Below are positions 5,867 through 31,360 of a stretch of 51,010 nt of DNA, in pieces; position 1 is the first letter of the stretch, and every line of letters starts with the position of its first letter. The position numbers and the translations under genes are program-made. The notes below the pieces were generated by a model. It ran no database searches. It saw only the letters and a list, made by a program, of their open reading frames with translations, and was not told the origin of the DNA. Source of the stretch: Butyrivibrio sp. Its GTDB lineage: Bacteria > Bacillota > Clostridia > Lachnospirales > Lachnospiraceae. The stretch is from positions 1 to 51,010 of the forward strand of contig JAILFT010000049.1 of the NCBI GenBank assembly GCA_024697425.1, given 5' to 3'.

Positions 5867-5901
5867 TTCACATAGATGATAATTAAACAGACTCGGCACA
5901 G

Positions 5902-5940
5902 CCCCTGCATGTTTCCTATAAACATGCAGGGGTATTTCTA
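5902..5940 (+). terminator. Rho-independent terminator after the HtrA gene
   Basis: A perfect 13-bp stem, CCCCTGCATGTTT (5902-5914) with its complement (5920-5932), 5-nt loop, followed by TATTTCTAT. Confidence 0.85.
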
Positions 5941-5977: not shown

Positions 5978-6007
5978 ATGACACCCTTTTTGTATTAATG
6001 CTATAAT
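5978..6007 (+). promoter_or_regulatory. Promoter of the two-component/SBP operon
   Basis: ATGACA (5978-5983), an 18-bp spacer and an extended -10 TGCTATAAT (TATAAT at 6002-6007). The predicted transcript starts near 6014, which makes the ATG at 6048 more likely than the one at 6024. Confidence 0.65.
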
Positions 6008-6047: not shown

Positions 6048-6779
6048 ATGTTCAGCGTATATTTGGTGGATGATGATACTCTGATTTTGGAAGAACTGAT
6101 AGATATTATCCCCTGGATGGATAATGGCTTTGAGGTGATCGGGAACCAGACGGATCCCCAGGCCGCTTTTTCTGAAATACTGGAACTTAAGCCGGATGTT
6201 GTGGTATGTGATCTTAAGATGCCAAGGATGGACGGCAATGAACTGATGGATAAACTGCATGAGGCAGGCTGCAAGGCAGAGTTTATCATGCTGTCTGCTT
6301 ATGATGCCTACGAGGATGTGCGGGCCTTCTATAAGGGCTCGGGATTTGATTATATACTGAAACCTGTCAACAGCGATGACATGCAGATGGTCCTCTCGGG
6401 GGTCAGCAAAAAGATCTCAGAAAGAAATCCTGCTCCGGAGCAGCAGCCTTCAGCCACGGACAACGAGAGCTTTAATCAGCTGGTCAAATACCTGGACGAG
6501 CATTTTGCGGAGAAACTGACTCTGGATATGCTGGCGAAGAAATTCGGCTTCTCCAGGAATTATGTCTGCGAGCTTTTTGCAAGGCATTACAACACGTCGC
6601 TGGTGCGCTATCTCACTGACATCAGGATGCTGAAAGCAGGCGAGATGCTTGCTGACAGGAACAGGCAGGTAAAAGACATCTCGATAAGCTGCGGTTATCC
6701 GAACACTGCGTACTTTTACAGGGTGTTCAAATCTTATTACGGAATGACGGTAAAAGAATACAGGGACTCCAAATGTTGA
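6048..6779 (+). CDS. YesN-type response regulator (receiver + AraC HTH)
   Basis: A DNA-binding response regulator of 243 residues. The N-terminal receiver begins VYLVDDD, has phospho-acceptor Asp55 in VVCDLKMP, the conserved switch residues in MLSAYDAY, and Lys in ILKPV. The C-terminal AraC/XylS double helix-turn-helix spans about 145-243 and includes DISISCGYPNTAYFYRVFK. The ATG at 6048 is chosen because GGGAG lies 8 nt before it; the in-frame ATG at 6024 has no RBS and lies only about 10 nt after the predicted transcription start. The gene overlaps the next one by 7 nt. Its cognate kinase is probably the YesM-like protein at the end of the same operon, and its targets may be sugar-uptake genes outside this window. 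Confidence 0.93.
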   Translation: MFSVYLVDDDTLILEELIDIIPWMDNGFEVIGNQTDPQAAFSEILELKPDVVVCDLKMPRMDGNELMDKLHEAGCKAEFIMLSAYDAYEDVRAFYKGSGFDYILKPVNSDDMQMVLSGVSKKISERNPAPEQQPSATDNESFNQLVKYLDEHFAEKLTLDMLAKKFGFSRNYVCELFARHYNTSLVRYLTDIRMLKAGEMLADRNRQVKDISISCGYPNTAYFYRVFKSYYGMTVKEYRDSKC

Positions 6780-8104
6780 AGAATAAGAGCAGACTTTTTT
6801 CACTGATCCTGATAATGCTTATTACAGCCGGGATCTGCCCTGCTGCCGGAGGCTGTGGCAGCGCAGGTCAGAAGGATGTGATAAGGGTAGCCATGCCCTA
6901 TTCCGACAACTTGCTGGAGCCTGAAGATAATTATTATGTCAGATGGCTGGAGGAGAGATCCGGCCTGGATATCGAGCCTGTTATCGTCAGGCAGCGCAAG
7001 TGCAGCGAATATCTCGATGCACTTTTTTCCCAGGACAACAATATAGATATAGTCATGTTCAGCGAAGAATTTGAGATCTCCGCCCGGGAGCTTACGCCGT
7101 ACAGGGATGCGGGTTTTCTGGCAAACGCCACGGACGGCAATTATTTCTACCCCAATTACGGCAGAGAGGCCGTGGGTGACTGCGGGCAGATCCTCTGGAT
7201 CAATTCGGGGTGGCTTAAGGATCTGGGACTTAAGGTTCCTGAGACCACCGAAGAACTGCGGGAAGTACTTATCGCCTTCAGGGACAGAGATCCCAACGGC
7301 AATGGGCTGCGGGATGAGACAGCTCTTTTGTCCGCCAATGATAAGACCGCATGCCGGGCCAGTGAACTGCTGATGGAATCATATGTCTACAACGATCCCT
7401 ACCACGACAGGCTCTTTAAGGACGAGGCGGGAAATGTGATAGATGCCGCAAAGACCGGGGAGTATGCTGAGGGGACAGCGTATATTGATGATCTGAAAAG
7501 AGAAGGACTGCTGGTGGGAGAGGACGAGGACTGGTCTTTGTCTGCGTTCACGGAGCTCATCAACAGTCCCGAGGACATGGTTGGAGCCTTTACTGCCGAT
7601 AGTCTGTCCGGGGTGATCTATCAGGGCAACCCGGAAATACTGGCCAGGTTCATGCATGTGGCTCCGTTAAAGGGACCCGAGGGAGCGCAGAACGCTCTGT
7701 ACGCCGGCGAAGAGATGGAGGTCGGTGCCATTATATGTGCGTCTTCGGAGCACAGAGATGAGGCGCAGAAACTTCTGGATATCATGATGACAAAAGAGGC
7801 ATCGCTGATCGCAAGATACGGAGAAGAGGGAGTGGACTGGGATTATTCCGACGGGACGGACGTCAGCATCTACGGCACCCCTTCCACCATCGTTACCCAC
7901 AACTATATCTGGGATACGCCGCAGAACAAGCATTTAAACGGTATCGGTCCCATGAATGTTCCGGTGGAATACCTGAAGGGCGTCACCTGGAACGGCATAA
8001 ATTCAGACTTTGAGTACATCGACGCCAGGGCCCAGATGAGCTATGCGGCCTATCTTCCGGATATTTCAAGGACACTGGTGCAGACACAGGAGACAAGCCC
8101 ATGA
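6773..8104 (+). CDS. Lipoprotein extracellular solute-binding protein (sugar-type)
   Basis: A 443-residue extracytoplasmic ligand-binding lipoprotein. The N-terminal signal LFSLILIMLITAGICPA ends in a lipobox-like AAGGC with Cys at about residue 28. The rest has the cluster-1 solute-binding look (VAMPYSDN start, DIVMFSEEF, RDRDPNGNGLRDETALL). The DPNGNG loop is common in sugar-binding lipoproteins of Firmicutes. The coding region starts inside the end of the response regulator gene and overlaps the next gene by 4 nt (ATGA), so the genes are translationally coupled. No ABC permease or ATPase is adjacent, so a role in signal sensing for the neighbouring kinase is as plausible as transport. The ligand is unknown. 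Confidence 0.85.
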   Translation: MLKNKSRLFSLILIMLITAGICPAAGGCGSAGQKDVIRVAMPYSDNLLEPEDNYYVRWLEERSGLDIEPVIVRQRKCSEYLDALFSQDNNIDIVMFSEEFEISARELTPYRDAGFLANATDGNYFYPNYGREAVGDCGQILWINSGWLKDLGLKVPETTEELREVLIAFRDRDPNGNGLRDETALLSANDKTACRASELLMESYVYNDPYHDRLFKDEAGNVIDAAKTGEYAEGTAYIDDLKREGLLVGEDEDWSLSAFTELINSPEDMVGAFTADSLSGVIYQGNPEILARFMHVAPLKGPEGAQNALYAGEEMEVGAIICASSEHRDEAQKLLDIMMTKEASLIARYGEEGVDWDYSDGTDVSIYGTPSTIVTHNYIWDTPQNKHLNGIGPMNVPVEYLKGVTWNGINSDFEYIDARAQMSYAAYLPDISRTLVQTQETSP

Positions 8105-9267
8105 TGAGAAGGAAACTGAAAAACAAGGCAGCTGTTGCAGGCATCCTTGCTTTGATAATGATCATGACCGCAGGCTGTGAAAGCCACATTCCATCAGCTT
8201 CTCAAGGGGGAAAAGAATCATCGGCGTCCCTTATGGAGGACGACCTGTCGGAGGAAGAGCTCTATGAGAAGGCTCTGCAGGAGGATGTGCTGACGGTCTA
8301 TACGGTCACCACCAGGGCCACGGTCACCAAGGAAGTGTTCGAGGCCACCTACCCGGGGCTGTGCGTAGAGATTAGGGATCTTCGCAGCCCGGACCTCATC
8401 GACGCCGTAAGATCCGGTTATGAGAGCGGGAGCAGCGACTGCGATGTGGTGATATGCAACGACAACAGCGGAGATTTTAAGAGCACCCTGGTGGATACCG
8501 GCATTGTGTTGCCCTATGTTCCCGGGGATATCCGCGGCAAAATGAAGGAAGGTCATGTGGGGGAGAGTATCTCTTTTCTCGATGAGGCGGAGATCGTATT
8601 CTACAACTCGGGAAAGTATGACTCGCAGCCCATAAAGAATATCTGGGAGATGACTGAGGATGAGTACAAGGGCAGGATCTATTTCCCCAATCCTCTGAGG
8701 TCTTTCTCAACATTTGCTTTTGTGGGTTCGTCCTTTGAACATGAGGATGAGATACGATCGGCATACAGAGATTACTATGGAAAAGAGTTTGAGCCTTCGG
8801 ATCAGAGCGCGGCAGAGGCCCTATGGAGCGGGATCGCCCGCAACACGGTTTTTACCAACAGCTCTGACGAGGTACTGGAAGCGCTGAATACGGATGCGGC
8901 AGACCTGGGAATAATGGTTTCCAGTAAGCTCAGATTCAGGGATGTGGGCTACAATGTGGCTCCCATCTATAAGCTTGAACCTTTCTGCGGAAGCCGCACT
9001 TCCTATGCAGTCATGATCGGAAGCGGATCCCGGAACATCAATTCAGCCAGGCTGTTTGTGAGATGCCTCCTTGGCGGGGAAGACGGCACCGGAGAGGGCT
9101 ACAGTCCCTTCTGTACAGCCGGGACCTGGTCTGCCAGGACGGATGTGGCGGATGGAAATGAAGTACCCATCGACGATACCGATCTTATGATCCCGGATCA
9201 GGACTACCTGATCGAAAACAGAGAATATCTGGAGAAATTCTGGGCTGATTGCCTTAAAGATCATTGA
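8101..9267 (+). CDS. Lipoprotein extracellular solute-binding protein (Fe3+/polyamine-type fold)
   Basis: A second ligand-binding lipoprotein, 388 residues. Its signal peptide AVAGILALIMIMTAGC contains a good lipobox with Cys at about residue 26. The mature part starts LTVYTVTTRATV and continues with FEATYPGL, CDVVICND and IVFYNSGK, a pattern of the AfuA/FbpA-like family 1/6 binding proteins, so it is not a duplicate of the preceding gene. The ATG overlaps the upstream TGA by 4 nt, and a second in-frame ATG lies at 8104. It sits between the first binding protein and the histidine kinase. Ligand unknown; a sensing or transport role cannot be told from sequence. Confidence 0.83.
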   Translation: MMRRKLKNKAAVAGILALIMIMTAGCESHIPSASQGGKESSASLMEDDLSEEELYEKALQEDVLTVYTVTTRATVTKEVFEATYPGLCVEIRDLRSPDLIDAVRSGYESGSSDCDVVICNDNSGDFKSTLVDTGIVLPYVPGDIRGKMKEGHVGESISFLDEAEIVFYNSGKYDSQPIKNIWEMTEDEYKGRIYFPNPLRSFSTFAFVGSSFEHEDEIRSAYRDYYGKEFEPSDQSAAEALWSGIARNTVFTNSSDEVLEALNTDAADLGIMVSSKLRFRDVGYNVAPIYKLEPFCGSRTSYAVMIGSGSRNINSARLFVRCLLGGEDGTGEGYSPFCTAGTWSARTDVADGNEVPIDDTDLMIPDQDYLIENREYLEKFWADCLKDH

Positions 9268-9283
9268 GTGGAGTTTGCAATAA

Positions 9284-10942
9284 GTGAAACAGAGAGGAAT
9301 CGCTAAAAGTTTCATATTTGCCATGGGCGTTCTGAGCGCATTTCTGGTGGTGCTGTGGATTCTCTTTTACTACACCACCAGGCGGGCCTTCGTGAACAAC
9401 ATGATAGCCCAGGCGGAGACCATTTCCGGGTCCATCACTTCAAGCATAGAGGATGAGCTGCTGTCCATCGACGAAATAGCTTATACTCTGGCTCACTATG
9501 ACCTAATTGTGAGTATGATGGACGCTGATGACGCCGGCTCTTTTTACGAGCTTGGAAGAATTGCGGCGGTCCGCTCAGAAGGCATGATCGGCACCTACAG
9601 CCCGGTGGACAACTGCCTTATACTGCGGGAGGACGGACTCTTTTACAGGCTTAAAGGGCAGATCTCCAACACTGCGGTGAAGAGGGTACACCACCTGCTG
9701 ACTCAGGAAGGCAGGGAGAGCATTACCGTTTCCGTTGGCGGCATGACCTACGTGGGATCCTGCCAGAAGATAGATTCCGGTGAAGGCGCAGCCACCGGCT
9801 ACGTGATCCTTCTCATGGAAAAGAGCCGGCTAAAAGAGCTGATGACTTCTTTTGACGAGCTTGAATACGTGGGCGTGGCCGTGTCGGCAGGAGATGAGAT
9901 GATCTGTTCCGACCGCGATATCAGCTATGAAGACCTTGAGGAAGTAAAGAGGACGGCTGCGTTTTACAAGGAGAAGGCCATCGGCCTCACAGGGTTCACG
10001 CTCCATACCTACTGCGACAACTCTGTTCCCCAGAGGCTTGGAAGAGCATATCAGGCGGCCCTTCCTCTGACCATCCTGGTGCTGCTGATGGTACTGGGAG
10101 TCTTTGTCCTGTACTGGAACAGGCACATCGTGAGACCTGTAAGTACCATCATCAACAGCGTGGGAGATGCGCCGGACAGCCCGATCCCCGACACCGGGGA
10201 GCAGTACTTTGATGAACTGGTGCATCATGTCAACGACGCCCTGGAGAGGCTCGAGGACAGGGACAGGCAGCTCTATGAGTCCGACATCAGGATCAAGGAA
10301 TCCGAACTGGTGGCGGAGAGAACACTGATGTCGCTTCTCAAGAAGCAGATAAATGCTCACTTCACGGTTAACACGCTGAATGCAGTCAGAGCCCTTATCA
10401 ATAAGGGAGAAAAAGAGAAGGCGGCAATGATCTGCGATGAGCTGTCGGCTCTGCTTCGCTATGCCAATGCCGGAGACGAGTATATCTCCATCATCGAGGA
10501 GTTTGACGTGCTGGAGCAGTATGTTTCCATCATGCAGGTGAGATTCCCCGACAGGTTCACCTTTGAGGCGGAACCCGATGATGCGGCTGCTCAGTGCTAT
10601 ATCCCCAGGATGCTGATCCAGCCTATTATAGAGAATTCCATTACCCATGGCTTTGCTGAAAAGAGCGGAACCATCAGGATCACTGCTGTTGCCGAAAAAG
10701 ACCTTGTGGTGACCGTCAGAGATGACGGAGATGGAATGGATCCGGAGAAGCTGGCTGAGCTTCAAAGACGGCTAGAGGAAGAGGAGTCCACAGCGGATTC
10801 CGGAGTCCGGCATGTCGCACTTCTTAATATTCAGAAACGTATAAGGTTGACCTGCGGAGACGGGTACGGCCTTAGCATCGTGTCTTCAGGGGAGGAGGGG
10901 ACTCAGGTCACCCTTAATCTGCCCCTTCGTTTAACACCTTAA
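9284..10942 (+). CDS. YesM/LytS-type sensor histidine kinase
   Basis: A membrane sensor kinase of 552 residues that starts with GTG; GGAG at 9270-9273 is the RBS. One N-terminal membrane helix (FIFAMGVLSAFLVVLWILFYY) and a second at about residues 263-284 (ALPLTILVLLMVLGVFVLYW) enclose a roughly 230-residue extracytoplasmic sensor region. A short HAMP-like linker follows, then a His-kinase domain with phospho-acceptor His359 in NAHFTVNTLN (the family usually reads NPHFLYNTLN). The ATPase has the N box in LIQPIIENSITHGF, the G1 box DDGDGMD, and NIQKRIRLTCG near the end. Probable partner of the response regulator that opens the operon, with the two binding proteins as candidate accessory sensors. 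Confidence 0.93.
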   Translation: MKQRGIAKSFIFAMGVLSAFLVVLWILFYYTTRRAFVNNMIAQAETISGSITSSIEDELLSIDEIAYTLAHYDLIVSMMDADDAGSFYELGRIAAVRSEGMIGTYSPVDNCLILREDGLFYRLKGQISNTAVKRVHHLLTQEGRESITVSVGGMTYVGSCQKIDSGEGAATGYVILLMEKSRLKELMTSFDELEYVGVAVSAGDEMICSDRDISYEDLEEVKRTAAFYKEKAIGLTGFTLHTYCDNSVPQRLGRAYQAALPLTILVLLMVLGVFVLYWNRHIVRPVSTIINSVGDAPDSPIPDTGEQYFDELVHHVNDALERLEDRDRQLYESDIRIKESELVAERTLMSLLKKQINAHFTVNTLNAVRALINKGEKEKAAMICDELSALLRYANAGDEYISIIEEFDVLEQYVSIMQVRFPDRFTFEAEPDDAAAQCYIPRMLIQPIIENSITHGFAEKSGTIRITAVAEKDLVVTVRDDGDGMDPEKLAELQRRLEEEESTADSGVRHVALLNIQKRIRLTCGDGYGLSIVSSGEEGTQVTLNLPLRLTP

Positions 10943-11038: not shown

Positions 11039-14000
11039 ATGAGATTTAAGAAGCTAATGGCACTGGCGTTGGCGGCAATGCTGACAGTTGGCTCTGTTCC
11101 TGTGGATACGGTCAGGGCAGCAGATTTTTCTGATGAAGCAACTGTAGAGTTGTCAGCAGATGCAGAAGAAAGCTCTGATGAGGCGGCGCTTGAGCTGTCT
11201 GATTCGGAGGAGGGGGACGCCGGGCAGGAAGTTGATGCCGGGCAGGTCACGGATCCGTCTGAAGATCCGTCAGTGGAGACCGGTACGGGTGATGCCGGTG
11301 AATCCGAAGATTCCCAGGATGAATTAAATGAAGAGACATCGGATACGTCCGAGGCAGAGGAGGCTGCAGAGGAGGCAACTCTTGAAGAAGAGGAGTCTGC
11401 TCTTGAAGTTGAGCCTGTTATAGATGAAGAACTGCCGGAGCTTTTTGCTGATGCATCGGGCATGATCCTTGATGCCAACGGTGGTAAGTTCAGTGATGGA
11501 AAGAGTATTTTGAAAAAATCTTCTCCGACTTATTATCTGAGCGATAGTGATATACCGTCAAGAGAAGGGTATGTGTTTGTGGGATGGTTTTCCACAGCGA
11601 ATTGCAGGGAAGATGAGAATCTTTCGGATGAGAGCTACCCCCGCAGACTTAATGAAACTCCTGCTGCAGGAACTACCATATATGCAGGATGGACTGATGA
11701 TTATTACACCGTTACCTATGACATGGGAGACGGATATTATAGAAATTCAGATACCGGCTATATCAGGGAGACGTCCATGGTATACAAGGTGCCCAAGACA
11801 CATCGACTTGGAACAGGTTATGGATATTATTATCCAAGCGAAGGTAATGTATACTGCAATGATGAGAGCTATTCTTTTGACAAGTGGACGGACGATAGCG
11901 AACAGGCTGTATATCCGTACAGTTATGAGCTGACCGGTAATGTAACGATTCATGCCAATTACAAACAGGACAAGTATATTCTGACCTATCATGCCAATTA
12001 TGGAGAAAATGCATATTTCAGCATATATGGATATGATGACGAGGGGCATTCCGGATACACAAACCATGAGTATAAAACTGAGCGTGTAAGTATAGGCTCC
12101 AGCTATACTTCTAAGTCAGTTTCAACCGATAAGCCCAGTGAGCTGAAAATGACTGTACCCAGAATGGCTTTTACAGACTGGTATCTGAATAAAGAGTGTA
12201 CGGAATCACCTACATGGTACTCTGACTCCGCCTGCACACAGATATGGACTCCTGATTCAGGTTCAAGTTACAGATACCTTAAGCTTACAGGGGATACTGA
12301 GCTTTTTGCCGGCTGGGATTCCACCAATGTTATTCTCAGCTTTGATCCCAATGGGGGTTATTTCTGCGATTCTGATACAGGAAACAAGAAGTCGCTTGAT
12401 AAAAAGGAATTTGGATATCCTTCCGGTACTACGATATCTTATCTTTCCATATACAGTCCCAGGAATGATAATCTTCATGTGAGATTTACAGGCTGGTTTG
12501 ACAATAAAGATTGTACGGGAGACCCTGTGTTTGATCCGGAGGGATCCTATTACTACTATCTTAATGATTATACTCTGAACAGTGATACGACTTACTATGC
12601 CGGATGGGAAGCGGTATACAATGTCATAACCTATGACATGAATGGCGGAATTCTGACTCGTTATTATGATAATGTTACGGGAAATTATATCTATGATGCT
12701 GAGATAACAACTATCAAGTATCGTACCGATGATGATAACGAGCCGTACAGATATCCGGATTCTTCCTATATTGCGTGGCCTGATGGAAGCAAGGCTTTTG
12801 GCGGCTGGTACACACAGGCAGTGGGCGGAGATGAGATTAAGAATATATACAACCAGAAATTCACTGAGGACACTACTGTATATGTTCATTGGATTCCTGT
12901 GTATACGGCAACCTTTGATGCCAACGGCGGCAGGATCAAAACAAACGGGCATTATAACGATGAGGATGAGTACGTATATGATTATGAAGAGGTTGTGACC
13001 TATAAGACCGGTAGCGGAGGTAAGCTCACTTCATATCCCTCTGACAGTAATGTCTGCTGGTGGAGCGACGGAGCTGTAAGCGAAGCCAAGGTATTTGAAG
13101 GCTGGTATCTGAATGGAGAAAAAATAACTGATCTATATAATCATGTACCTGCTTCGAATGAGACTATTATTGCGCACTGGGTTCCGTGCTATACTGTGAC
13201 TTTTGATGCCAATGGCGGCAAGATCAAGGTGAACGGAAAATGGAATACCGAGCTGCAGCAGACTGTCTATGAATATGTAGACAGCGTAGAGCGTAAGACA
13301 AAGGGCAACGGAACTATCTATAATTATGTCAGTGATTATGAAGTTGTCTGGTGGAGCAACGGAGCTGTCAGTGAGGCTATGGTCTGTGCGGGCTGGTATG
13401 ATGCAAACGATGAATCTCAGACTCTGATCAGTAGTATAAGCAGCTATATACCTGAAGGAGACACTGTATTAAAGGCAAAATTCCTTACGGTCAGGACTGT
13501 CACCTTTAGTGCGAATGGCGGTAAGATCAGGATCGAACATTGGGATTCCTCACAACAGCAGACCATCTATGAAGAGTTTGACAGCGTAGAGCGCAAGACC
13601 AATAAAAAGGGCCTGGTTGAAAATAAACCTTATGATTCCTACATGATCCCTCCGGAGAACAGTAACAGTCTCTTTGCAGGCTGGTATCTGCAGGGGGATG
13701 AGAGTAAGACCCTGATTGATTTTTCTTCGTTTGTTCCGGAGAGTAATGTCACTCTTCTGGCATATTACAGACCGATCTACACGATCACCTTCAATGCTAA
13801 TGGCGGATTCATAAAGGAAAATTACTATGATACTACCGGATCTGCAACAAAGGAACTGAATACCAATGCGAAAGGAATGCTGGAGAGTACTTACTACGTC
13901 GGCGAATACTATGTTGGACATTCCGATCCTAAAAAGACATTTGAAGGATGGTTTACTGAAGCTACGGGTGGGGAGAAGATCACGGAATTAAGCAGCTATG

Positions 14001-17000
14001 TCTTTTCCGGGAATACGACCTTATATGCTCACTACTCGAGCCTTTTCGAGGTTATTTTTGATGCCACAGGCGGACAGATCAGGTACTGGGATGAAGATGA
14101 AGGTGAGTATGCTTATGCGTCCACCCGAAATTATGTGACAAATAGAGAAGGAAAGCTGAACAGGCATCCTTATGACTATGATGTTACCCGCGAGAGCTAT
14201 AATTTCATTGGCTGGTATTTAGAAGATACCTCCACAAAGATTGATGATCTTAGCAGCTATGTGTTTACAAAAGATACCACACTGAAGGCGCATTGGGGCA
14301 AGAAGTGTAAGGTTACTTTTGATGCCGGAAGCGGAAAGTTTACTTATTATGATGAAGAACAGGGTAAGGAAGTTACTGCCAGCAGAGCAACTATCCAGGT
14401 AAATGACAGGGGACACCTGGATCACTATCCCAGCGAGCCTGTTCTGGCAGGCAAGAGCTTCCTTGGATGGTATACAGCTTCAGGATTTAAGATTGACAGT
14501 CTGTGGGATTTCCAGCCCGCTGATGATGTTACTCTTACTGCAAGATATCAAACTCCTTTTTCCATCACTTTTGACGGCAAAGGGGGAACCTTTACCTACT
14601 ACGATGAGGAACAGGGCAAGTATATCAGCGGCGTAAAGACCGCTGTTATCAAGACCAGAGGTGAAGACAACTATATAAGCGGTCTTCCTTCAAATGTCAT
14701 TCCCGGAGATTCCACCACAGTATTTGACGGCTGGTATATCGGCGACAGAAAGCTTACCAGCAATTACAATGAGTTCGACAAGAGTCTTACAGTAACTGCC
14801 AGGTATGTGAAATACTATACAGTCACCTTCATTTCCATGGGTGGATATTATGAGGATTATAACGGAGATAAGATCCTTGCTGCCCAGACTGTAAAGGTTC
14901 CTGTAGGAAAGAGCCTTGGAGAGGGCATTGGAGAATTAAGAGACCTCCAGAATGAAGACGAGAACGTTGAATTTGCCGGATGGTATCTGGATACGGGATT
15001 TGGAGACAACAGCCAGATCAATGAGGAGAGTTACATTCCCACAAAGAATACAACTGTCTATGCGTATTGGGCGGAAGTGCACGACGTGGTCTTTGAAGCT
15101 GGCTTCTTCAATGATATAGAGGGAACCATAGAAGGTACAACCAGCCATACTATTGTTTATAAGGTAAGACACGGAGAGAAGCTTCGATATGTTGATGGTG
15201 CCGGTGTTCCCGGTGTGACCTTTAATATGGGGGATCCTTTCTTCCTGGACGGCTGGTTTGACGTGGATGATATGACTGTCTCCAAGGTCCTTCTTTCTGA
15301 CGAGGAGATACTGAACCGGGTCGTTGATAAGGACATTACCTATATGGCTCAGATAACTCTTGGAAGAGATCTTTCCTTCCACTCCAACGGGGGAAGATTC
15401 CTGTCAGTCAGGGAGGTTGTTGAAGGCTGTGGTTTCTATACAGTAAGGATAACTACTGATGAGTACCACGCTTCAGCCCGGGGAAAAGAGCCGGTGGTTG
15501 TAAGGGACGATGATCCTGAGCACCCTGACGTTCACTGGGTGTTTGGAGGCTGGTTCTATGATGAAGAATGCACGACTCCAGCAAATCTCTATGACCTTAA
15601 CAAGCCCGGCTATGACACTATAGACCTGTATGCGGGCTGGTCACAGTGCTATACACTGACCTTCCACAGCAATAAGGAAGGAGCAACCTTTAAGAATGGA
15701 AAAGATACTGTAGTTGTGAAGGTTGTAAAAGGAGAAACCTTCAGATACGGTGATGACAATGATGATCTGGATGTTGTCGGAGGTAATCCTGAGCTTAAGA
15801 CAAAACCTGACGACAGCTTTGCATCCAGAGGCTGGTATACTAATGCAGAATGCACCGAGGGATTCCGGTTAGATGTTGGTGGAATGGACGGAATATATGG
15901 TTTCATCCCCACTGAGGATATGGATTTCTATATCAAGTGGCACGACTACAGCGATGGAGTGGATGTCACCTTTGATGCAAACGGAGGCGTATTCAGCAGC
16001 TCAAAATACTGGTGGTATGGTTATGGAGAACCGCGTCTGGATACTGAGCATAAGCAGTGGACAGTAACCGTTCCCAAGGGGATTACATGGGGAGAACTTG
16101 AGTCTATTACTAATTTCCCGTATTCATTTGATTCAAGACCTGCGGGAATGAGATATAACAACTGGAAGTATTCCGATAAGGAATGCGCAAATTATATCAG
16201 GGATGATGTCCTGATCGACAATGATATTACCGTGTATTGCGCATGGTATCCTAAGAGCGGCGGAAATCCGGGAACTCCCGATACCTACAATAAGGTAACT
16301 TATCATGCCTGTGAAGGGTACTATAAGATAGGCAGCCGTCGCAAGAAGACCATTTCGGGCCAGTACAAGCTTTACAACGCAACTTCAAATAATGGGTGGT
16401 ACGGCTTTGAGGCTCCAAAGATAGATGATGACACAAAGATCTTCTCGGGCTGGTACCTTGATCCGGAACGTACAATTCCATATTACGACGGACATTTCCG
16501 CATACAGTATAACTGGGGATATTATTCATATGAGATTAGATTCCCTCAGGAAGTAACAGATCTTTATGCGGGATATTCTCCTTCCTATCAGGTGGAGTTT
16601 AATGCAAACGGCGGATACTTTGATGATGATTATGATAGATATAAAGATCCTGCCGTAAAGATGAGAAACAGATATATCATTGAGACCAAGCTTCTTCCGG
16701 GACAGACTGTCATCATATCCGATATCATCAAGAGAATCAGAAGAGACGGCGATATGCTCTTTGGCGGATGGTACACAGATGCGGCTTGTACTCCGGGAAA
16801 AGAGGCCGGGATCTATGCGGTAGATAACGATGCCGAGTTGTTTAAACCGACTGCAAATACAACACTTTATGCCAAGTGGATTCCTTATGAGAAACCGGCT
16901 TCTGTTTCCATAGATGGGGACAAAGAGAGAAACATTGACATAGGAACGTCTGTAAAACTCACTGCGACAGTAACACCCGAAGATGGGCAGACTGTAACCG

Positions 17001-20000
17001 GCAAGGTTCACTGGTTTATAGCTTATTGTGAATATGATTATGAAGATGGTTATGTTCAGCAATGCGCTAAGCTGGATGAAGATGGAACGGTCACCGGACT
17101 GTCACAGGGTATCTGCGATATTTATGCAGAAGTTAACGGTATCAGATCTGATACCGTAAGAATAAATATAAGCAACACGGTTGTCGAGAATAACATGGTG
17201 CTTGATATTACCGGAAGTATTGTAATGTACAGCGGCGGAGCCAGAACGGTAAAGGCGACTATCACACCTGAAAATCTGGCAGATATTCTCGGAGGAAGCA
17301 TTAAGTGGAGCAGCGACAAGCCTTCAGTTGTTTCGGTTACACCTTCAGGAGATGGTTCAGAAGCTATATTGACCGGAGGATTCAGTGAAGGTGAAGCTAC
17401 AATTACAGCTAAACTTGGTGAGATTACCAGAACCTTTACTGTTAAGGTATTAACGGCTGTCAAGCTGAACAGGGAGGAGATAATTCTTTCTGCAACGCAG
17501 GGGGCATCTACTACAGTACAGACAACCTGCATTTCTGCACTGGGTGATTCCTTATCCTGTACAATTACTACCAGGGATGGTAGTGCCTACGAAGGAGTGA
17601 CGATAGAAAAGTCCGGAGCAGCTGTTGCAGAAGGAGATAAATCCACACAGAACTGGGTCATCAAAGTTAATAAGGATCTTGAGCTGGAGTATCCGGGAGA
17701 AGCTGTATTAACGGCTTCAGTAACCGGAACAGATGCAATGATCTACAGACATACTTCCAGGATTACCCTTAATCCCAGGTCGCAGGTCGGAGCAGTTACG
17801 GTCAATATTGGAAAGCTTTATGACAGCAGCTACAATAATGCAGCTTCTGTTGCGAAGGGAACAAAAGTACTTCTTTATTGTGAAACTCAGGATAGCGATA
17901 TCTGGTATACCACAGATGGGACTGAGCCTGAAAAGAACGGAGCATCGTCAGTTCTTTTCACCGATGCGGTTGTGATAAACGGCAATACGTCCATCAGGGC
18001 TATCGGCGTTAAGAGTGGCAGAAGAAACAGCGCAGTCTACAGATTCGACTATGTTGTTGAGGACTGGGGTGACGCAGAAGATTACAAAGAGGCCTTTGGC
18101 AACAACATTGCTGAGGTTCCCGAGGACATATGGTTTGTTATCGGAACCATGGTTTACAAAGAAGTCGGTAACGGGGCAACAACCTACAGCAGGACATATA
18201 CAGGAAGCGCAATTACCTTTAACAGCGATGTAAAGGTATTTAACGGAACAGAAAGACTCATTGAGAACAGAGATTATACACTGAGCTATTCCAATAACAT
18301 AAATGTGGCGGGAATCGATGCTGTAAAGGGAACTAAGAGCATTGCGCCTGTCGTTACCATTAAGGGTAAAGGCAACTACACTAAGAATGCGGCCTTCAGA
18401 TTCACCATAGAGCCGGCTTCGATACATACTGCAGAAATCACTTCAGAGAAGGTGGTGGCTGTGGCAGCAGGACCTAAGGTGAAGTTATCTTCGGTTAAGC
18501 CGACAGTGGCATTTAATGGCAAGAAGCTGACCTTTGGTAAGGACTATGATCTTAAGTACTACGAGGGCACCGATACAACAGCTGCTCCGATAGATGCAGC
18601 AACCACGATACTTAAGGATGCGGGCAAAACCTATACCATCGTTCTGGCAGAGAAGGCAGGAAGCAACTTTGAAGAACCTGTGGGGACACCCGAGAATTCC
18701 AGGCTCAAGGTTACAGTGGTTACCATCGATAGCAAGGATGCTTCTGTTACCATGGCTTCCAAGCTTAAGTTCGGAAACGACAAGGGCAAGGCTATTACAG
18801 TTCCTTACAAAGCAGCCGATTATACCGCTGCAGAGCTCTTTGACAACAACGGAGAGGACAAGACCCCTGCAGGATACGTATATGTCAAAGGCGCTACAAA
18901 GGATGCATTTACTTATGGTGTTGATTACACCATTACCCTTGATGAGGACAGCAGATCTGCAGGTAAGCACAGCTTTGTTATCAGCGGCACGGAGAATGGC
19001 AGGATCACAGGAACCCGCACGGGAACATACACCATTGCTGAAGAAGCGGGCATGAGCTGGAAGTCCGTCAAGGTGGCGGGTCTTTTGACATCTGTTGAAT
19101 ACACGGGAAAGGCCGTTACACTGGATGACCTGTTCAATGCAAAAGACAAGACTGTTACAGCTCATAATAAGGATGCTTTGGATGCAGATAAGTGGAACGG
19201 AGTGACTCTTTACACTACTACAACCGAGAAGGTGGGTGGTAAGAAGGTTACAAAGTATCATGCGTTGAAGGTTTATGATGCTACCAATCCCAAGGGAGCA
19301 GTGCTGGATAATACCTATGACTGCGTGATTTCTTATGATAACACCGGTGTTGTGGGCAAGTTTGATCTGATAGTTATCGGTATCAACGGACTTAGCGGAA
19401 GCATGAAGAAGACCATTACTGTTAAGGCATACAACCTGAATGATGCTAAAAAGGGTGATGGTGCAAAGATCACAGTAAGGGCGGCTTCAACAAACTATTC
19501 CAAGGCCGGTGCCAAAGCTGAAGTCGAGGTTAAGTACGGCGATAGGCTTCTTAGAGAGGGAATTGATTACACTGTATCTTACAAGAATAACGCAAAGATT
19601 GTTGATAATTATAATGATCTTAAACCGGCAGCAAGACCTACGGCAGTTATCAAAGGAAAAGGCAACTATACCGGCAGCAATGCGACCGCTTACTTCAACA
19701 TATTCAGGGTGAATGCTGTGGATGCCATTACCCTGTCGGTATCTGATGTGGTATACAATCCTAAGGGTAAGAGCGGATATTTCCTGGCTGTTCCCAAACT
19801 TATGGACAATGGCAAAGCAGTAACTGCCGGAAAGAACAAGGACGTTGACGCTATAGCCAAGTATGATTACGCATATTATTATGCGGAGGATACAGTGCTC
19901 GATGATGCTGATAAGACCCTTAAGAGTGCAGGAGAGAGCCTGAGTGCCTCAGATGACATACCTGTAGGAACGCTGATACGCGTAACTGTAACTATCCACA

Positions 20001-20383
20001 TCAGCAATGACAAGAAGGTGCGCACAAAAGAGAGTCCTTATCTCGTATACGGAGCAGGACAGAGCGCAGTTCTTGAAGGCTTCTACAGATTTGTGGATGC
20101 AGGAAAAGATATCAGTAAGATGTCCGCAGCTATCAAGAAGGGCGTAACATATAACTTCCATAACGGAGATGAGATCATTCCTGTTAAGACTCAGGATATT
20201 CAGGTTTCGTATAAGGTTAAAGGCCAGAAAGACCCTGTATATCTGGGAGAAAATGATTTTGAGATCGTATCTGTTTCTCAGAACCGCTTCATTGGCACGG
20301 CAACAGTTGTTATCCGTGGTAAGAACGGATACGGAGGAACCAGGACCATTACCTTCAAGATCACCGCAGCAGGTATGCAATGA
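11039..20383 (+). CDS. Giant secreted InlB B-repeat surface protein (3114 aa)
   Basis: A very large secreted protein. Order of parts: signal peptide (MALALAAMLTVGSVPVDTVRA, cleavage near residue 28); a highly acidic Glu/Asp/Ser segment (30-140); about nineteen InlB B-type (Listeria-Bacteroides, Flg_new) repeats (about 140-1950), each with a TFDANGG strand and an F-x-GWY signature about 40-60 residues later; bacterial Ig-like domains (about 1950-2250); a chitobiase C-terminal-like module (IWYTTDGTEPEKNG, about 2250-2345); then YDG/MBG-like repeats with VTIKGKGNYT and AVIKGKGNYTGS (about 2380-3114). No LPXTG motif, transmembrane anchor or cell-wall-binding repeat is seen at the C-terminus, so attachment is unclear. 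Strong RBS GAGGAGGGG. The role is probably adhesion or scaffolding; no enzyme domain was recognised. A terminator follows. Confidence 0.9.
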   Translation: MRFKKLMALALAAMLTVGSVPVDTVRAADFSDEATVELSADAEESSDEAALELSDSEEGDAGQEVDAGQVTDPSEDPSVETGTGDAGESEDSQDELNEETSDTSEAEEAAEEATLEEEESALEVEPVIDEELPELFADASGMILDANGGKFSDGKSILKKSSPTYYLSDSDIPSREGYVFVGWFSTANCREDENLSDESYPRRLNETPAAGTTIYAGWTDDYYTVTYDMGDGYYRNSDTGYIRETSMVYKVPKTHRLGTGYGYYYPSEGNVYCNDESYSFDKWTDDSEQAVYPYSYELTGNVTIHANYKQDKYILTYHANYGENAYFSIYGYDDEGHSGYTNHEYKTERVSIGSSYTSKSVSTDKPSELKMTVPRMAFTDWYLNKECTESPTWYSDSACTQIWTPDSGSSYRYLKLTGDTELFAGWDSTNVILSFDPNGGYFCDSDTGNKKSLDKKEFGYPSGTTISYLSIYSPRNDNLHVRFTGWFDNKDCTGDPVFDPEGSYYYYLNDYTLNSDTTYYAGWEAVYNVITYDMNGGILTRYYDNVTGNYIYDAEITTIKYRTDDDNEPYRYPDSSYIAWPDGSKAFGGWYTQAVGGDEIKNIYNQKFTEDTTVYVHWIPVYTATFDANGGRIKTNGHYNDEDEYVYDYEEVVTYKTGSGGKLTSYPSDSNVCWWSDGAVSEAKVFEGWYLNGEKITDLYNHVPASNETIIAHWVPCYTVTFDANGGKIKVNGKWNTELQQTVYEYVDSVERKTKGNGTIYNYVSDYEVVWWSNGAVSEAMVCAGWYDANDESQTLISSISSYIPEGDTVLKAKFLTVRTVTFSANGGKIRIEHWDSSQQQTIYEEFDSVERKTNKKGLVENKPYDSYMIPPENSNSLFAGWYLQGDESKTLIDFSSFVPESNVTLLAYYRPIYTITFNANGGFIKENYYDTTGSATKELNTNAKGMLESTYYVGEYYVGHSDPKKTFEGWFTEATGGEKITELSSYVFSGNTTLYAHYSSLFEVIFDATGGQIRYWDEDEGEYAYASTRNYVTNREGKLNRHPYDYDVTRESYNFIGWYLEDTSTKIDDLSSYVFTKDTTLKAHWGKKCKVTFDAGSGKFTYYDEEQGKEVTASRATIQVNDRGHLDHYPSEPVLAGKSFLGWYTASGFKIDSLWDFQPADDVTLTARYQTPFSITFDGKGGTFTYYDEEQGKYISGVKTAVIKTRGEDNYISGLPSNVIPGDSTTVFDGWYIGDRKLTSNYNEFDKSLTVTARYVKYYTVTFISMGGYYEDYNGDKILAAQTVKVPVGKSLGEGIGELRDLQNEDENVEFAGWYLDTGFGDNSQINEESYIPTKNTTVYAYWAEVHDVVFEAGFFNDIEGTIEGTTSHTIVYKVRHGEKLRYVDGAGVPGVTFNMGDPFFLDGWFDVDDMTVSKVLLSDEEILNRVVDKDITYMAQITLGRDLSFHSNGGRFLSVREVVEGCGFYTVRITTDEYHASARGKEPVVVRDDDPEHPDVHWVFGGWFYDEECTTPANLYDLNKPGYDTIDLYAGWSQCYTLTFHSNKEGATFKNGKDTVVVKVVKGETFRYGDDNDDLDVVGGNPELKTKPDDSFASRGWYTNAECTEGFRLDVGGMDGIYGFIPTEDMDFYIKWHDYSDGVDVTFDANGGVFSSSKYWWYGYGEPRLDTEHKQWTVTVPKGITWGELESITNFPYSFDSRPAGMRYNNWKYSDKECANYIRDDVLIDNDITVYCAWYPKSGGNPGTPDTYNKVTYHACEGYYKIGSRRKKTISGQYKLYNATSNNGWYGFEAPKIDDDTKIFSGWYLDPERTIPYYDGHFRIQYNWGYYSYEIRFPQEVTDLYAGYSPSYQVEFNANGGYFDDDYDRYKDPAVKMRNRYIIETKLLPGQTVIISDIIKRIRRDGDMLFGGWYTDAACTPGKEAGIYAVDNDAELFKPTANTTLYAKWIPYEKPASVSIDGDKERNIDIGTSVKLTATVTPEDGQTVTGKVHWFIAYCEYDYEDGYVQQCAKLDEDGTVTGLSQGICDIYAEVNGIRSDTVRINISNTVVENNMVLDITGSIVMYSGGARTVKATITPENLADILGGSIKWSSDKPSVVSVTPSGDGSEAILTGGFSEGEATITAKLGEITRTFTVKVLTAVKLNREEIILSATQGASTTVQTTCISALGDSLSCTITTRDGSAYEGVTIEKSGAAVAEGDKSTQNWVIKVNKDLELEYPGEAVLTASVTGTDAMIYRHTSRITLNPRSQVGAVTVNIGKLYDSSYNNAASVAKGTKVLLYCETQDSDIWYTTDGTEPEKNGASSVLFTDAVVINGNTSIRAIGVKSGRRNSAVYRFDYVVEDWGDAEDYKEAFGNNIAEVPEDIWFVIGTMVYKEVGNGATTYSRTYTGSAITFNSDVKVFNGTERLIENRDYTLSYSNNINVAGIDAVKGTKSIAPVVTIKGKGNYTKNAAFRFTIEPASIHTAEITSEKVVAVAAGPKVKLSSVKPTVAFNGKKLTFGKDYDLKYYEGTDTTAAPIDAATTILKDAGKTYTIVLAEKAGSNFEEPVGTPENSRLKVTVVTIDSKDASVTMASKLKFGNDKGKAITVPYKAADYTAAELFDNNGEDKTPAGYVYVKGATKDAFTYGVDYTITLDEDSRSAGKHSFVISGTENGRITGTRTGTYTIAEEAGMSWKSVKVAGLLTSVEYTGKAVTLDDLFNAKDKTVTAHNKDALDADKWNGVTLYTTTTEKVGGKKVTKYHALKVYDATNPKGAVLDNTYDCVISYDNTGVVGKFDLIVIGINGLSGSMKKTITVKAYNLNDAKKGDGAKITVRAASTNYSKAGAKAEVEVKYGDRLLREGIDYTVSYKNNAKIVDNYNDLKPAARPTAVIKGKGNYTGSNATAYFNIFRVNAVDAITLSVSDVVYNPKGKSGYFLAVPKLMDNGKAVTAGKNKDVDAIAKYDYAYYYAEDTVLDDADKTLKSAGESLSASDDIPVGTLIRVTVTIHISNDKKVRTKESPYLVYGAGQSAVLEGFYRFVDAGKDISKMSAAIKKGVTYNFHNGDEIIPVKTQDIQVSYKVKGQKDPVYLGENDFEIVSVSQNRFIGTATVVIRGKNGYGGTRTITFKITAAGMQ

Positions 20384-25902: not shown

Positions 25903-27297
25903 TTACCTGCCAAGGAGCTCATCGCCTATTTTAACAACATCTCCGGCTCCCATGGTTATCAACAAGTCACCCTTAGTGCAATTTTGCAGAAGGAATTTTT
26001 CTATTTCATTAAAGTTTTCAATTGTTGGAAAATAATTACACTCGTGTCCCATCTCAACGATCTTATCCCGAAGAGTTCTGGAGCTTATTCCTAAATTATC
26101 CTTCTCTCTTGCGGCATAAATATCGGCCAGTATCACATGATCTGCCAGCGAAAGGGCCTGTGCGAATTCATTCAAAAGAGCCTTCGTCCTGGTGTAGGTG
26201 TGTGGCTGGAATACACACCAGATCTTGTTGTGAGGATAGTTCTGGGCTGCAGTAAGGGTAGCCCTGATCTCTGTGGGGTGATGAGCGTAGTCATCAATAA
26301 TGGTTACTCCGCCAATCTCGCCCTTGTGCTCAAAACGTCTGCTGGTTCCGCCGAACATTGAAAGAGCAGTAAGGATATGCTCATCTTCTATATTAAGAAG
26401 AGTTGCCACAGCGATGGCGGCAAGAGCATTGTAAACGTTGTGGATTCCGGGAACTGCCAGTTTTACCTGAAGGCTCTTTTCCCCGGGAAGATGTGCTGTA
26501 AAGGACGGATTGCCAAACTCGTCATATACGATGTCCGTGGGATAGAAGTCGTAGCTGCCTTTGGACCCGTAGGTTAATACGCTGCATTTAAGTCCGTCTG
26601 TAATCTCAGAGAGGTTCTCAATATCTCCGCTGATGACAAGGGTTCCGTCTTCGGGAAGGAGCTGCGCAAACTTTCTGAAGGAGTGTCTTATGTCATCAAG
26701 GTCCTTGAAGAAATCCAGATGGTCTGCGTCAATATTGGAGATTACGCTGATCTTGGGAAAAAAGCTGAGGAAGGAGTTGGTGTACTCGCAGGCCTCAGTT
26801 ACGAAGTACTCTGACTTGCCGACTCTGATGTTGCCTCCGATGTCCTTGAAGATTCCACCGATGGAGAGGGTGGGATCCGTGTCTGCCTCAAGAAGGATCT
26901 TGGAGAGCATTGAAGTTGTGGTGGTCTTGCCGTGGGTTCCTGCGATGGCTATGGGAAGCTCGTACTCCTTCATGATCTGTCCCAGGAGCTCTGCTCTTGT
27001 GAGCATCGGAAGACCTGCCGCACTGGCAGCTGCGAACTCGGGATTGTCAGGATGCACAGCCGCTGTGTAGACTACTACATCTATATCTTTTGACCGGGAG
27101 ATATTCTCGGCCTTCTGTCCGTAAAATATTTCAACGCTTTTTTTCTCAAGGGCTTCAGTAATGGCGGATTTCTTGTTGTCCGAGCCGGAGATCTTAAAGC
27201 CTTCTTCAATGAGGATCTGCGCAAGGCCGCTCATGGAGATGCCGCCGATGCCCATGAAATAGACGTGAATGGGATTTTTGAAGTCGATTTTGAACAT
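25903..27297 (-). CDS. murC: UDP-N-acetylmuramate--L-alanine ligase
   Basis: The first amino-acid-adding enzyme of peptidoglycan precursor synthesis: it joins L-Ala to UDP-MurNAc with ATP in the cytoplasm. The protein has 464 residues, normal for MurC. The N-terminal UDP-binding motif is GIGGISMSGLA (about 16-26). The ATP loop is GTHGKTTTTSM (about 118-128). The Mur central-domain TEACEYTNSFL and the C-terminal DDYAHHPTEI and VFQPHTYTR are MurC-specific. The ATG at 27297 is preferred over the one at 27357 because GAGGCAAATTA is a good RBS and FKIDFKNP is the usual start of the family. The promoter region is shared with divergent glgC. Confidence 0.96.
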   Translation of the reverse strand: MFKIDFKNPIHVYFMGIGGISMSGLAQILIEEGFKISGSDNKKSAITEALEKKSVEIFYGQKAENISRSKDIDVVVYTAAVHPDNPEFAAASAAGLPMLTRAELLGQIMKEYELPIAIAGTHGKTTTTSMLSKILLEADTDPTLSIGGIFKDIGGNIRVGKSEYFVTEACEYTNSFLSFFPKISVISNIDADHLDFFKDLDDIRHSFRKFAQLLPEDGTLVISGDIENLSEITDGLKCSVLTYGSKGSYDFYPTDIVYDEFGNPSFTAHLPGEKSLQVKLAVPGIHNVYNALAAIAVATLLNIEDEHILTALSMFGGTSRRFEHKGEIGGVTIIDDYAHHPTEIRATLTAAQNYPHNKIWCVFQPHTYTRTKALLNEFAQALSLADHVILADIYAAREKDNLGISSRTLRDKIVEMGHECNYFPTIENFNEIEKFLLQNCTKGDLLITMGAGDVVKIGDELLGR

Positions 27298-27506
27298 TAA
27301 TTTGCCTCGATTCTTCACACATTTAATATGATGATTTACGAAATTATATTCTAACACTTATTCTGACAAAGTCAAAAAACACCGGGCGAAATTTGTTTAA
27401 AATAAATATAAAGAACACTTGGCAAATAGGTTTTTTTTCGTATGTTTGAGTGATATACTTATAATTAAGTAAAAAGCGAATTCTTTTATGTGCAGCGAGG
27501 TGAAAC

Positions 27507-28775
27507 ATGATAAAAAAAGAAATGATCGCCATGCTTTTGGCAGGTGGCCAGGGCAGCAGATTGGGAGTGCTGACCTCTAAAATGGCAAAACCTGCAGTTT
27601 CTTTTGGGGGAAAATACAGAATCATCGATTTCCCGCTCAGCAACTGCATCAATTCGGGAGTTGATACTGTAGGTGTCTTAACCCAGTATCGCCCGCTCAG
27701 ACTAAATTCTCACATCGGCATTGGTATTCCGTGGGATCTCGACCGTAACTTCGGAGGAGTAACGGTTCTTCCGCCCTACGAGAAGAGTGCCAACAGCGAA
27801 TGGTACACAGGTACCGCCAATGCTATCTATCAGAATCTCGAGTACATGGAGAACTATAATCCTGAATATGTGCTGATTCTTTCAGGTGACCACATCTACA
27901 AGATGGATTATGAGACCATGCTTGATTTCCACAAGTCCAGCAACGCTGATGTTACCATCGCCGTTATGCCGGTTCCCATGGAGGAGGCCAGCAGATTCGG
28001 TATCATGATCACCGACGACGACAAGCGCATTGTGGACTTTGAGGAGAAACCCGAGCATCCCCGCAGCAATCTGGCTTCCATGGGTATCTATATCTTCACG
28101 TGGCAGGCTCTTAAGGATGCGCTCATCAAGAACAAGGATCAGGCCGGACTTGATTTCGGTAAACATATAATCCCTTATTGCAAGGAGCAGGGTCAGTCCC
28201 TGTTTGCATACGAGTTTGACGGATACTGGAAGGATGTTGGAACTCTGACCTCCTATTGGGAAGCCAACATGGAGCTCATCGACATTGTTCCCGAGTTCAA
28301 CCTCTACGAGGAGTACTGGAAGATCTACACCGCCAGTGACGTTCAGCCTCCTCAGTACCTTGGCAACGAAAGCGCTATTGAGCGCAGTATCGTGGGTGAG
28401 GGATGTGAGATCTACGGCAAGGTTTACAACTCCGTTATCGGACCCGGCGTCAAGATCGGCAAGGATACTGTAGTCAGCCACTCCATCATCATGAATGAGA
28501 CGGAGATTGGCGAGGGCTGTAATATAGAGAAGGCTATCATCGCAGAGAAGGTCAAGATCGGCTCAGGCGTTAAGCTTGGTGCCTTCGAGGAAAAAGAGAA
28601 TGAGACCAAGCCCGGAATTTATTGTGAAGGCTTAGTCACCATCGGAGAGAGATCCGTTATTCCTGACAATGTTACTATCGGCAAGAACACTATGGTCTCC
28701 GGCAAAACAACAGCGGAAGACTACAAAGACGGTGTCCTCGACAGCGGACGAACATTAGATAAGGCAGGTGATTGA
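27507..28775 (+). CDS. glgC: Glucose-1-phosphate adenylyltransferase, catalytic subunit
   Basis: Makes ADP-glucose from glucose-1-P and ATP, the committed step of bacterial glycogen synthesis. The protein has 422 residues. The nucleotidyltransferase signature [13 protein letters not shown] (about 8-20), the [15 protein letters not shown] segment, the catalytic [10 protein letters not shown] and the sugar-binding FEEKP are all present. A left-handed beta-helix follows (about 290-400, hexapeptides such as [12 protein letters not shown]). RBS GAGGTG. A TATAAT lies at 27460-27465, 41 bp upstream. The partner gene glgD starts 2 nt after its stop, so the two are coupled. Confidence 0.96.
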
Positions 28776-28777
28776 GA

Positions 28778-29896: not shown

Positions 29897-29970
29897 TAGA
29901 CGAGGCCTATTCGTTTATCGCTTTAATATGTAACTGACATCTGGGTTTCCACAAAGAGGGGGACGACAAT

Positions 29971-30291
29971 ATGAAGATTACAGACATCCGCGTAAGAAAA
30001 GTTGCAAAACAGGGAAAGATGCGTGCAGTAGTATCAGTTACTTTTGATAACGAGTTTGTTGTTCACGACATAAAGGTTATCGAAGGCGAGCGTGGCTTGT
30101 TCATTGCCATGCCCAGCAAGAAGTCGGCTGACGGAGAATACAGGGATATCGCACATCCCATCAACTCCGACACCCGCAAGATCTTGCAGGATGCCATCCT
30201 CGAGGCCTTTGAAAAGGCGGCACCACCCGATGAAGAGGGAGGTGGCGATGCAGCGCCTGAAGCACCGGTGGATAATCCGCCCTTCGCTTAA
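29971..30291 (+). CDS. spoVG: Septation/stage V sporulation regulator SpoVG
   Basis: A small nucleic-acid-binding regulator, 106 residues. The opening [11 protein letters not shown], the [17 protein letters not shown] strand and IAMPSKK are the conserved SpoVG core (1-88). The C-terminal tail is short and acidic or Pro-rich, ending DNPPFA. In other Firmicutes SpoVG influences septation, capsule and virulence genes; no target can be read from this window. The RBS is a GAGGGGG run 10 nt before the ATG. The stop codon region is followed by an in-frame degenerate copy of the tail and then by tandem repeats. Confidence 0.95.
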
Positions 30292-30342
30292 GTGGCCGGT
30301 GCAGGGACGAAGCTGTGGCTTGATAATCCGGCATTTGCGTAA
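30271..30342 (+). repeat. In-frame degenerate duplication of the SpoVG tail
   Basis: Codons for DNPPFA-stop (30271-30291) recur as DNPAFA-stop (30322-30342), exactly 51 nt later and in the same frame. Readthrough of the first stop would add 17 residues ending in a second similar tail. Confidence 0.6.
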
Positions 30343-30363
30343 GTTGGGTGTTGAATGGCATAA

Positions 30364-30445
30364 GCTGCGGCCTTTCCTATAGACGGATGGGTTGCGGATT
30401 CGAAGTTGCAGCCTTTCCTATAGGCGGATGGGTTGCGGATTCAAA
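30364..30445 (+). repeat. Two tandem 41-bp repeats after spoVG
   Basis: Units 30364-30404 and 30405-30445 share CCTTTCCTATAG and CGGATGGGTTGCGGATTC with only about 5 differences. A partial third start (GTTGCAG) follows at 30446. The repeats are non-coding as far as I can see. Confidence 0.85.
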
Positions 30446-30484
30446 GTTGCAGTGCTGCTATAAAGTTAGAGCTATAGAATATGA

Positions 30485-30516
30485 CGGGAGGCTTATATTT
30501 GGGGCCTCCCGTTTTT
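30485..30516 (+). terminator. Terminator downstream of spoVG
   Basis: CGGGAGGC (30485-30492) pairs with GCCTCCCG (30504-30511), followed by TTTTT. Confidence 0.9.
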
Positions 30517-31349: not shown

Positions 31350-31360
31350 TGTGATTGGAT

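Follow-up and report, generated by a model that had tools for sequence, protein, structure and literature searches.

A cluster of four genes in a 51,010-nucleotide (nt) stretch of Butyrivibrio sp. DNA (the window, which is the whole of contig C206, GenBank JAILFT010000049.1) raises the question of what two extracellular binding proteins do beside a two-component system and without a transporter. The genes lie at positions 6048-10942, all on the + strand, and encode a response regulator (RR), two substrate-binding proteins (SBP1 and SBP2) and a histidine kinase (HK), in this order:

6048..6779, + strand: response regulator, short, with a receiver and an AraC-type helix-turn-helix (HTH) domain (Pfam Response_reg and HTH_18/AraC)
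6773..8104, + strand: SBP1, an LplA/AlgQ-type binding protein with a lipobox-like N terminus (profile and structure matches)
8101..9267, + strand: SBP2, a ferric/AfuA-type (SBP_bac_8-like) binding lipoprotein (profile and structure matches)
9284..10942, + strand: sensor kinase with a GTG start (Pfam His_kinase, PF06580, and HATPase_c)

RR and SBP1 overlap by 7 nt and SBP1 and SBP2 by 4 nt, and a gap of 16 nt separates SBP2 from HK, so the operon-like RR-SBP-SBP-HK arrangement described in an earlier note on this DNA is confirmed by coordinates and domains. The lack of a permease is likewise confirmed, as none of the genome's 67 PF00528 (BPD_transp_1) matches falls on the 51-kb contig. The genome itself is a fragmented bin with short contigs (3.0 Mb in 232 contigs, 84.5% complete, 6.6% contaminated). 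We consider it probable that the module serves sensing alone, with two binding proteins for each kinase and both of them on the sensing side. Direct support comes from the genes themselves, from the way in which they are conserved together, from the branch that SBP2 forms apart from its transport-linked relatives, from a sensor domain specific to the module and from the finding that no one transporter accompanies it consistently.

The four-gene module recurs well beyond the window. A kinase-seeded search of genome contigs returned 28 loci, of which L001-L020 carry the same type of kinase and 17 (L001-L010, L012, and L014-L019) hold all four genes. This kinase type occurs without both SBPs at L011 and L013 (RR-HK only) and at L020 (RR-SBP1-HK), and at the other 8 loci (L021-L028) the match is confined to the kinase region. 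The 17 four-gene loci span Lachnospiraceae, Ruminiclostridium, Thermoclostridium, Oscillospiraceae/Ruminococcaceae, Christensenellaceae, Anaerovorax and one Treponema bin. Searches seeded with SBP2 added 12 further four-gene loci besides the window; these searches covered overlapping samples at the level of class (5 of 391 genomes, threshold 1e-20), order (5 of 392, 1e-100), family (21 of 397, 1e-15) and genus (8 of 79, 1e-10), along with two small family searches (1 of 3 and 2 of 32). The family sample divides into 9 genomes with the four-gene module, 3 of which (G658, G549, and G427) are those of L001, L010 and L008, and 12 with lower-scoring SBP2 relatives, for which a permease lies in the locus in 11 cases and is lacking at L124. 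The genus sample divides into 4 module genomes and 4 with lower-scoring relatives, and one genome of the class sample (G084) holds HK-SBP1-SBP2 ended by a contig edge (L113).

In total, 30 four-gene loci were found, window included, in Bacillota and the one Treponema bin; this number includes 4 close copies (L003, L005, L019, and L165). Some lie on short contigs (L017, L018, L019, L122, and L138), and SBP2 in L122 and HK in L016 are each split over two frames. The order RR-SBP1-SBP2-HK is kept in 24 loci and RR-HK-SBP1-SBP2 in 2, while SBP1-SBP2-RR-HK, SBP1-SBP2-HK-RR, RR-SBP1-HK-SBP2 and a divergent form occur once each; the genes for SBP1 and SBP2 are immediate neighbors in 29 of the 30. Linkage kept through six gene arrangements is the main evidence that the four genes form a functional unit. 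The module is thus recurring, if sparsely distributed, and not a local accident.

For both SBPs, the matches to SBP_bac families fall short of the Pfam cut-offs, and both have N termini that look like lipoboxes on inspection, with the SBP2 cysteine invariant in 17 of 17 aligned proteins. The earlier description of two lipoprotein binding proteins of different fold classes stands as far as two distant SBP families with lipobox-like N termini are concerned, while "different fold classes" is overstated; we take both to have the type II periplasmic-binding-protein fold. The SBP1 profile matches 5g5z and AlgQ2 at an E value of about 3e-40, which places it in the LplA/AlgQ family, and the DPNxNGxxDE loop is kept, with D173, N175, N177, G178 and D181 invariant in 18 of 18 proteins. 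Paralogues of SBP1 in the window genome include one on contig C119 beside two permeases. The window SBP1 stops about 50 profile positions early, and the SBP1s of L009, L010, L012, L015, L120, L164 and L166 have no clear lipobox and look anchored by a transmembrane (TM) helix.

SBP2 matches ferric-type binding proteins. FbpA-type members of that group bind iron with an adjacent pair of tyrosines. The Tyr-Tyr of 1y4t aligns to the "dd" of "ddigil" in the SBP2 profile (AADLGI in the window) in a single alignment of modest score, and ferric iron is disfavored as the SBP2 ligand, since the tyrosine pair is missing. In a tree of 48 SBP2-type proteins, one branch (97/97) divides 26 module SBP2s from 22 others, and 20 of these 22 have a permease in the same locus. 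Profile score was used to label the two groups; SBP1 and kinase matches lie beside the 26, and the 20 transport-linked proteins have no SBP1 match. Module SBP2s thus form a branch separate from their transport-linked relatives. In one locus of another kind (L132, 6526-12332), a further HK and RR precede a relative of SBP2 and a fused permease, and its layout is intermediate between those of an importer and a sensor.

The RR and HK are conserved along with the SBPs. Although the first in-frame ATG of the RR is at 6024, the ATG at 6048 has a GGGAG 8 nt upstream and aligns with the starts of its relatives, which are about 240-260 amino acids (aa) long. The window RR is similarly short, and its earlier assignment as a YesN-type regulator holds for the receiver and the AraC HTH but not for the long linker that is a feature of YesN. 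The YesM-type assignment of the kinase is well founded, with PF06580 and HATPase_c both present in 17 of 17 aligned kinases. The kinase consists of TM1, an extracellular domain of about 225 residues (approximately residues 32-255), TM2, a HAMP-like linker, His_kinase and HATPase_c; the TM helices and the linker were assigned by inspection, and no Pfam HAMP match was obtained in the window kinase. In 12 of the 28 module-type kinases (L002, L006-L008, L011, L013, L020, L117, L119, and L136-L138), the region between TM2 and the kinase domain is about 50 residues shorter, as if the HAMP-like linker were missing.

The extracellular sensor domain received no Pfam family name, with a weak dCache_1 match in 3 of 17 members (best E value, 0.0014). 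We built a profile from this region. All 28 module-type kinases score at least 66 bits with it (16 of them, including those of L011 and L013, being training rows), and 10 other His_kinase-type kinases score at most 4.3 bits, two of them unreported. These 10 comprise 9 of the window genome's other 14 PF06580 kinases and the kinase of L132. The lowest module-type score belongs to a partial frame (L016) and the second lowest, 72 bits, to the kinase of L020, the locus without SBP2. The sensor domain is thus specific to the module.

We also asked how the module proteins have diverged, using partial distance correlations across 24 loci with 999 permutations. Plain mirror-tree correlations (0.80-0.91 for all six pairs) were set aside in favor of this partial test, as shared species history explains much of them. 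SBP1 and SBP2 distances correlate when kinase, RR and sensor are controlled for (partial r, 0.60; 0 of 999), and the two SBPs thus behave as a pair, although joint transfer of neighboring genes would give the same co-divergence. With RR and sensor controlled for, SBP2 and the kinase domain show a partial r of 0.07 (302 of 999). The conserved SBP1-SBP2 pairing would fit two-input sensing.

In the mechanism that we infer, SBP1 and SBP2 would be tethered outside the membrane, bind one or more small extracellular ligands and jointly convey their state to one kinase through its extracellular domain. The kinase would phosphorylate the AraC-type RR, which would switch nearby genes, often one for a large secreted or surface protein and here probably that for a 3114-aa repeat protein downstream. 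On the best reading, the cassette would work like HptASR, XylFII-LytS and CuaDSR without being of the HptA type. More tentatively, SBP1 and SBP2 may be an obligate heteromeric extracellular receptor drawn from two unlike importer families, so that the module would act as a four-component coincidence detector, for two ligands or for one ligand bound by two proteins, and control surface display and not uptake.

The absence of a transporter bears directly on whether the SBPs might instead be ordinary transport SBPs for permeases encoded elsewhere, with the RR and HK regulating that uptake. Of the 15 PF06580 kinases in the window genome, 8 have a PF00528 match on their contig at a distance of about 10 kb or less; kinases of this family thus commonly have an importer next to them in this genome, and its absence here is not trivial, though contigs are short. 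A BPD_transp_1-type permease profile, built from 25 window-genome permeases, matched beside 1 of the 30 four-gene loci (L119) and also beside L020; in the positive control, it matched 20 of 21 loci with lower-scoring SBP2 relatives. It is thus not the case, as the earlier note had considered, that relatives regularly carry permeases lost only here. This profile may miss other permease classes (an ABC-3 gene in L014 was found by Pfam), and transporter genes of any class lie beside at least 5 of the 30 loci, with neighbors named in part of the loci. Near the module, Pfam identified ABC-3 (L014), ZnuA on the opposite strand (L136), ABC_tran (L012) and CbiQ (L001), and in L016 and L117 multi-TM genes cluster with ATPases of the ATP-binding cassette (ABC) type within 7 kb and are probable ABC genes. 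Such neighbors favor a transport role, as do at least two pairs of a fused permease and an ATPase in the window genome, which are of the kind that partners SBP2 relatives. The pairs at L175 and L176 (contigs C28 and C213, 548-aa ATPase) are very similar and extend up to, or close to, the ends of their contigs, where no SBP can be seen; in a fragmented bin, they keep a transport role for SBP2 in play. The neighboring transporters nevertheless differ in class (a complete ABC importer, ABC-3, an ABC transporter with a PERM-type permease, ABC_tran, ZnuA, and CbiQ), and a conserved partner transporter was rejected because those of L119, L020, L014, L136, L012 and L001 differ from one another. In addition, none of the 20 permease-linked relatives falls within the module SBP2 branch, the two SBP genes accompany those of the kinase and RR in all six arrangements, and in three better assemblies (G1004, which is one closed contig, G502, and G670) the PF00528 matches listed are all at least 39 kb from the module. 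We therefore regard a transport role as unlikely.

Several observations weigh against a sensing role for both SBPs. A complete ABC importer lies directly upstream of the module in L119, and L020 has RR-SBP1-HK without SBP2, beside ABC transporter genes. The co-divergence does not point to the sensor in particular: the partial r between the sensor and each SBP is 0.24 given kinase and RR (14 and 9 of 999) and 0.12 with the other SBP controlled for as well (133 and 115 of 999). For SBP1 and the kinase domain it is 0.37 with RR and sensor controlled for (7 of 999), above that of SBP1 with the sensor. Passages in PMC11113362 describe two P. aeruginosa kinases that are not activated by their neighboring SBPs, and gene neighborhood thus does not prove contact or function. 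Finally, the L011 and L013 kinases score 249-256 bits with the sensor profile, and their genomes gave no match to SBP2 (E value, 1e-8) or SBP1 (E value, 1e-6); these loci keep the RR and sensor domain without SBPs, which shows that the kinase family does not strictly require them. The module kinase might sense its cue directly, with the SBPs only buffering, sharpening or inhibiting the response or each serving a different kinase, and CuaS alone still seems responsive to cellobiose according to PMC10384115. We find this quite improbable, as L011 and L013 have a common locus layout that suggests a single event in one lineage, and linkage of the kinase to both SBPs is kept in 30 loci. There is very little to suggest that the module is no more than a hexose-phosphate sensor of the HptASR type to which a further SBP has been added. 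The component classes are the same, and the weak dCache_1 matches in 3 of 17 kinases recall HptS, a double-PDC sensor according to PMC8534201, which also reports 6LKG and 6LKI as HptSA structures. However, a profile of 17 SBP2s did not list HptA (6lkg/6lki) even at an E value of 10, while as a control the SBP of L145 (contig C171), from the window genome, matched 6lkg at 6.9e-24. L145 (421-3961) is a single-SBP system in the same genome, with the HptA-like SBP beside its own kinase and RR, and the module sensor profile did not report that kinase. The HptASR target is uhpT, as stated in PMC8774646, and no uhpT-type transporter was found among the 19 window genes scanned with Pfam.

The surroundings of the module bear on its proposed output. 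Three flanking features are relevant:

5901..5933, + strand: terminator-like hairpin 3' of the upstream gene (14 pairs, 7 GC, short T tail)
5978..6007, + strand: promoter-like site ATGACA-18-TATAAT before the RR (consensus match 11/12, TG before the -10)
11039..20383, + strand: gene for a 3114-aa repeat-rich secreted or surface protein (Flg_new repeats), 96 nt 3' of the kinase

The upstream neighbor encodes a trypsin-like/PDZ protease (Pfam), from which the hairpin would insulate the module. Promoter-like sites are no more frequent in the region than in shuffled sequence, and the one at 5978..6007 is a consensus match only. A palindrome at this promoter, TGTCA-N4-TGACA, was sought upstream of the RR in 23 loci as a shared regulator site and rejected; the exact copy occurred in the window only, with one-mismatch variants at differing places in L001, L007 and L013. 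Farther along, positions 25903-35070 hold a Mur ligase gene, two adjacent NTP_transferase/hexapeptide genes (glgC/glgD-like), a peptidyl-tRNA hydrolase gene and an mfd-like gene, a housekeeping context. A short N-terminal domain recurs in genes at L012 (17686, no Pfam match), L116 (14137, 14964, and 18173) and L119 (2345 and 6559).

A co-directional gene lies within 300 nt 3' of the module in 14 of 23 loci examined. These genes look secreted in 9 of 14 cases, compared to 42 of 147 control pairs from the same loci (one-sided P = 0.009) or, with a length filter chosen afterwards, 24 of 147 (P = 0.0002), in a post hoc test on related loci with a home-made signal-peptide rule. A looser test of both sides of 22 modules was not significant against the same loci (16 of 40 versus 33 of 137; P = 0.07) and gave P = 0.0003 against genes away from transporter loci (17 of 137). 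Repeats occur in 5 of the 9 secreted proteins, namely, SLH (L012 and L164), LRR (L002), Big_2/DUF285 (L137) and Flg_new (window); the other 4 (L009, L010, L118, and L120) had no Pfam family match. The window protein is secreted, with Flg_new repeats and an Fn3_assoc stretch, and has only a weak repeat match to the L137 protein (E value, 2e-5). A conserved single target gene was rejected: the recurrent families each occur in few loci, and only the secreted or surface class recurs. The 96 nt between the kinase and the 3114-aa protein gene hold no + strand terminator-like site, and this gene is probably a target of the module or a fifth gene of the operon. A frequent output in the form of secreted or surface proteins may be taken as a lead.

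The comparison of the module with XylFII-LytS made in the earlier note is borne out by the literature, in which SBP-kinase three-component systems such as CuaDSR, HptASR and XylFII-LytS are established (PMC10384115, PMC8774646, and PMC6321045). The SBP genes cluster with HK and RR in the window and in 29 further loci. The module is real and conserved, though sparse in its distribution, and is probably a variant of the SBP-assisted two-component system. HptASR of Staphylococcus aureus likewise combines an AraC-type RR (HptR), a His_kinase-type HK (HptS) and a ferric-fold SBP in one cluster, and HptA serves sensing; HptA is its one SBP, whereas the module has two. In XylFII-LytS of Clostridium beijerinckii and in AraPST, the arabinose system of Geobacillus stearothermophilus, an SBP presents the ligand to the sensor kinase. 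The transporter-linked SBP2 relatives, which are presumably AfuABC-like, belong to the same SBP family but have a two-domain fused permease of about 600 aa, no SBP1 and a separate branch. CuaDSR of Ruminiclostridium cellulolyticum shares with the module an SBP, a kinase and an AraC-type RR, and its sensing SBP is distinct from its transport SBP; it has one sensing SBP beside a dedicated importer operon, as described in PMC10384115, in contrast to two SBPs and no consistent importer here. The linker of CuaR is 318 residues long according to PMC10384115 and PMC5663094, compared to the short RR of the module. In Gram-positive two-SBP systems, as outlined in the same papers, one SBP does the sensing and the other supplies the importer of a sugar import cluster; unlike in the xylose and arabinose systems, both module SBPs sit with the kinase. 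Two ligand-binding proteins also meet one receptor in AibA/AibB and TlpB of Helicobacter pylori, a chemotaxis receptor and not a kinase (PMC6321045). A literature search of open-licence PMC papers found no description of such a two-SBP cassette. The SBP-assisted kinases found described there rely on a single sensing SBP and for the most part watch over an importer, whereas the module retains, in distant bacteria, two SBPs from different importer families together with one kinase. If the pair is one receptor, it would show transport proteins becoming multi-input receptors and would offer a handle on the control of large surface proteins in these Clostridia.

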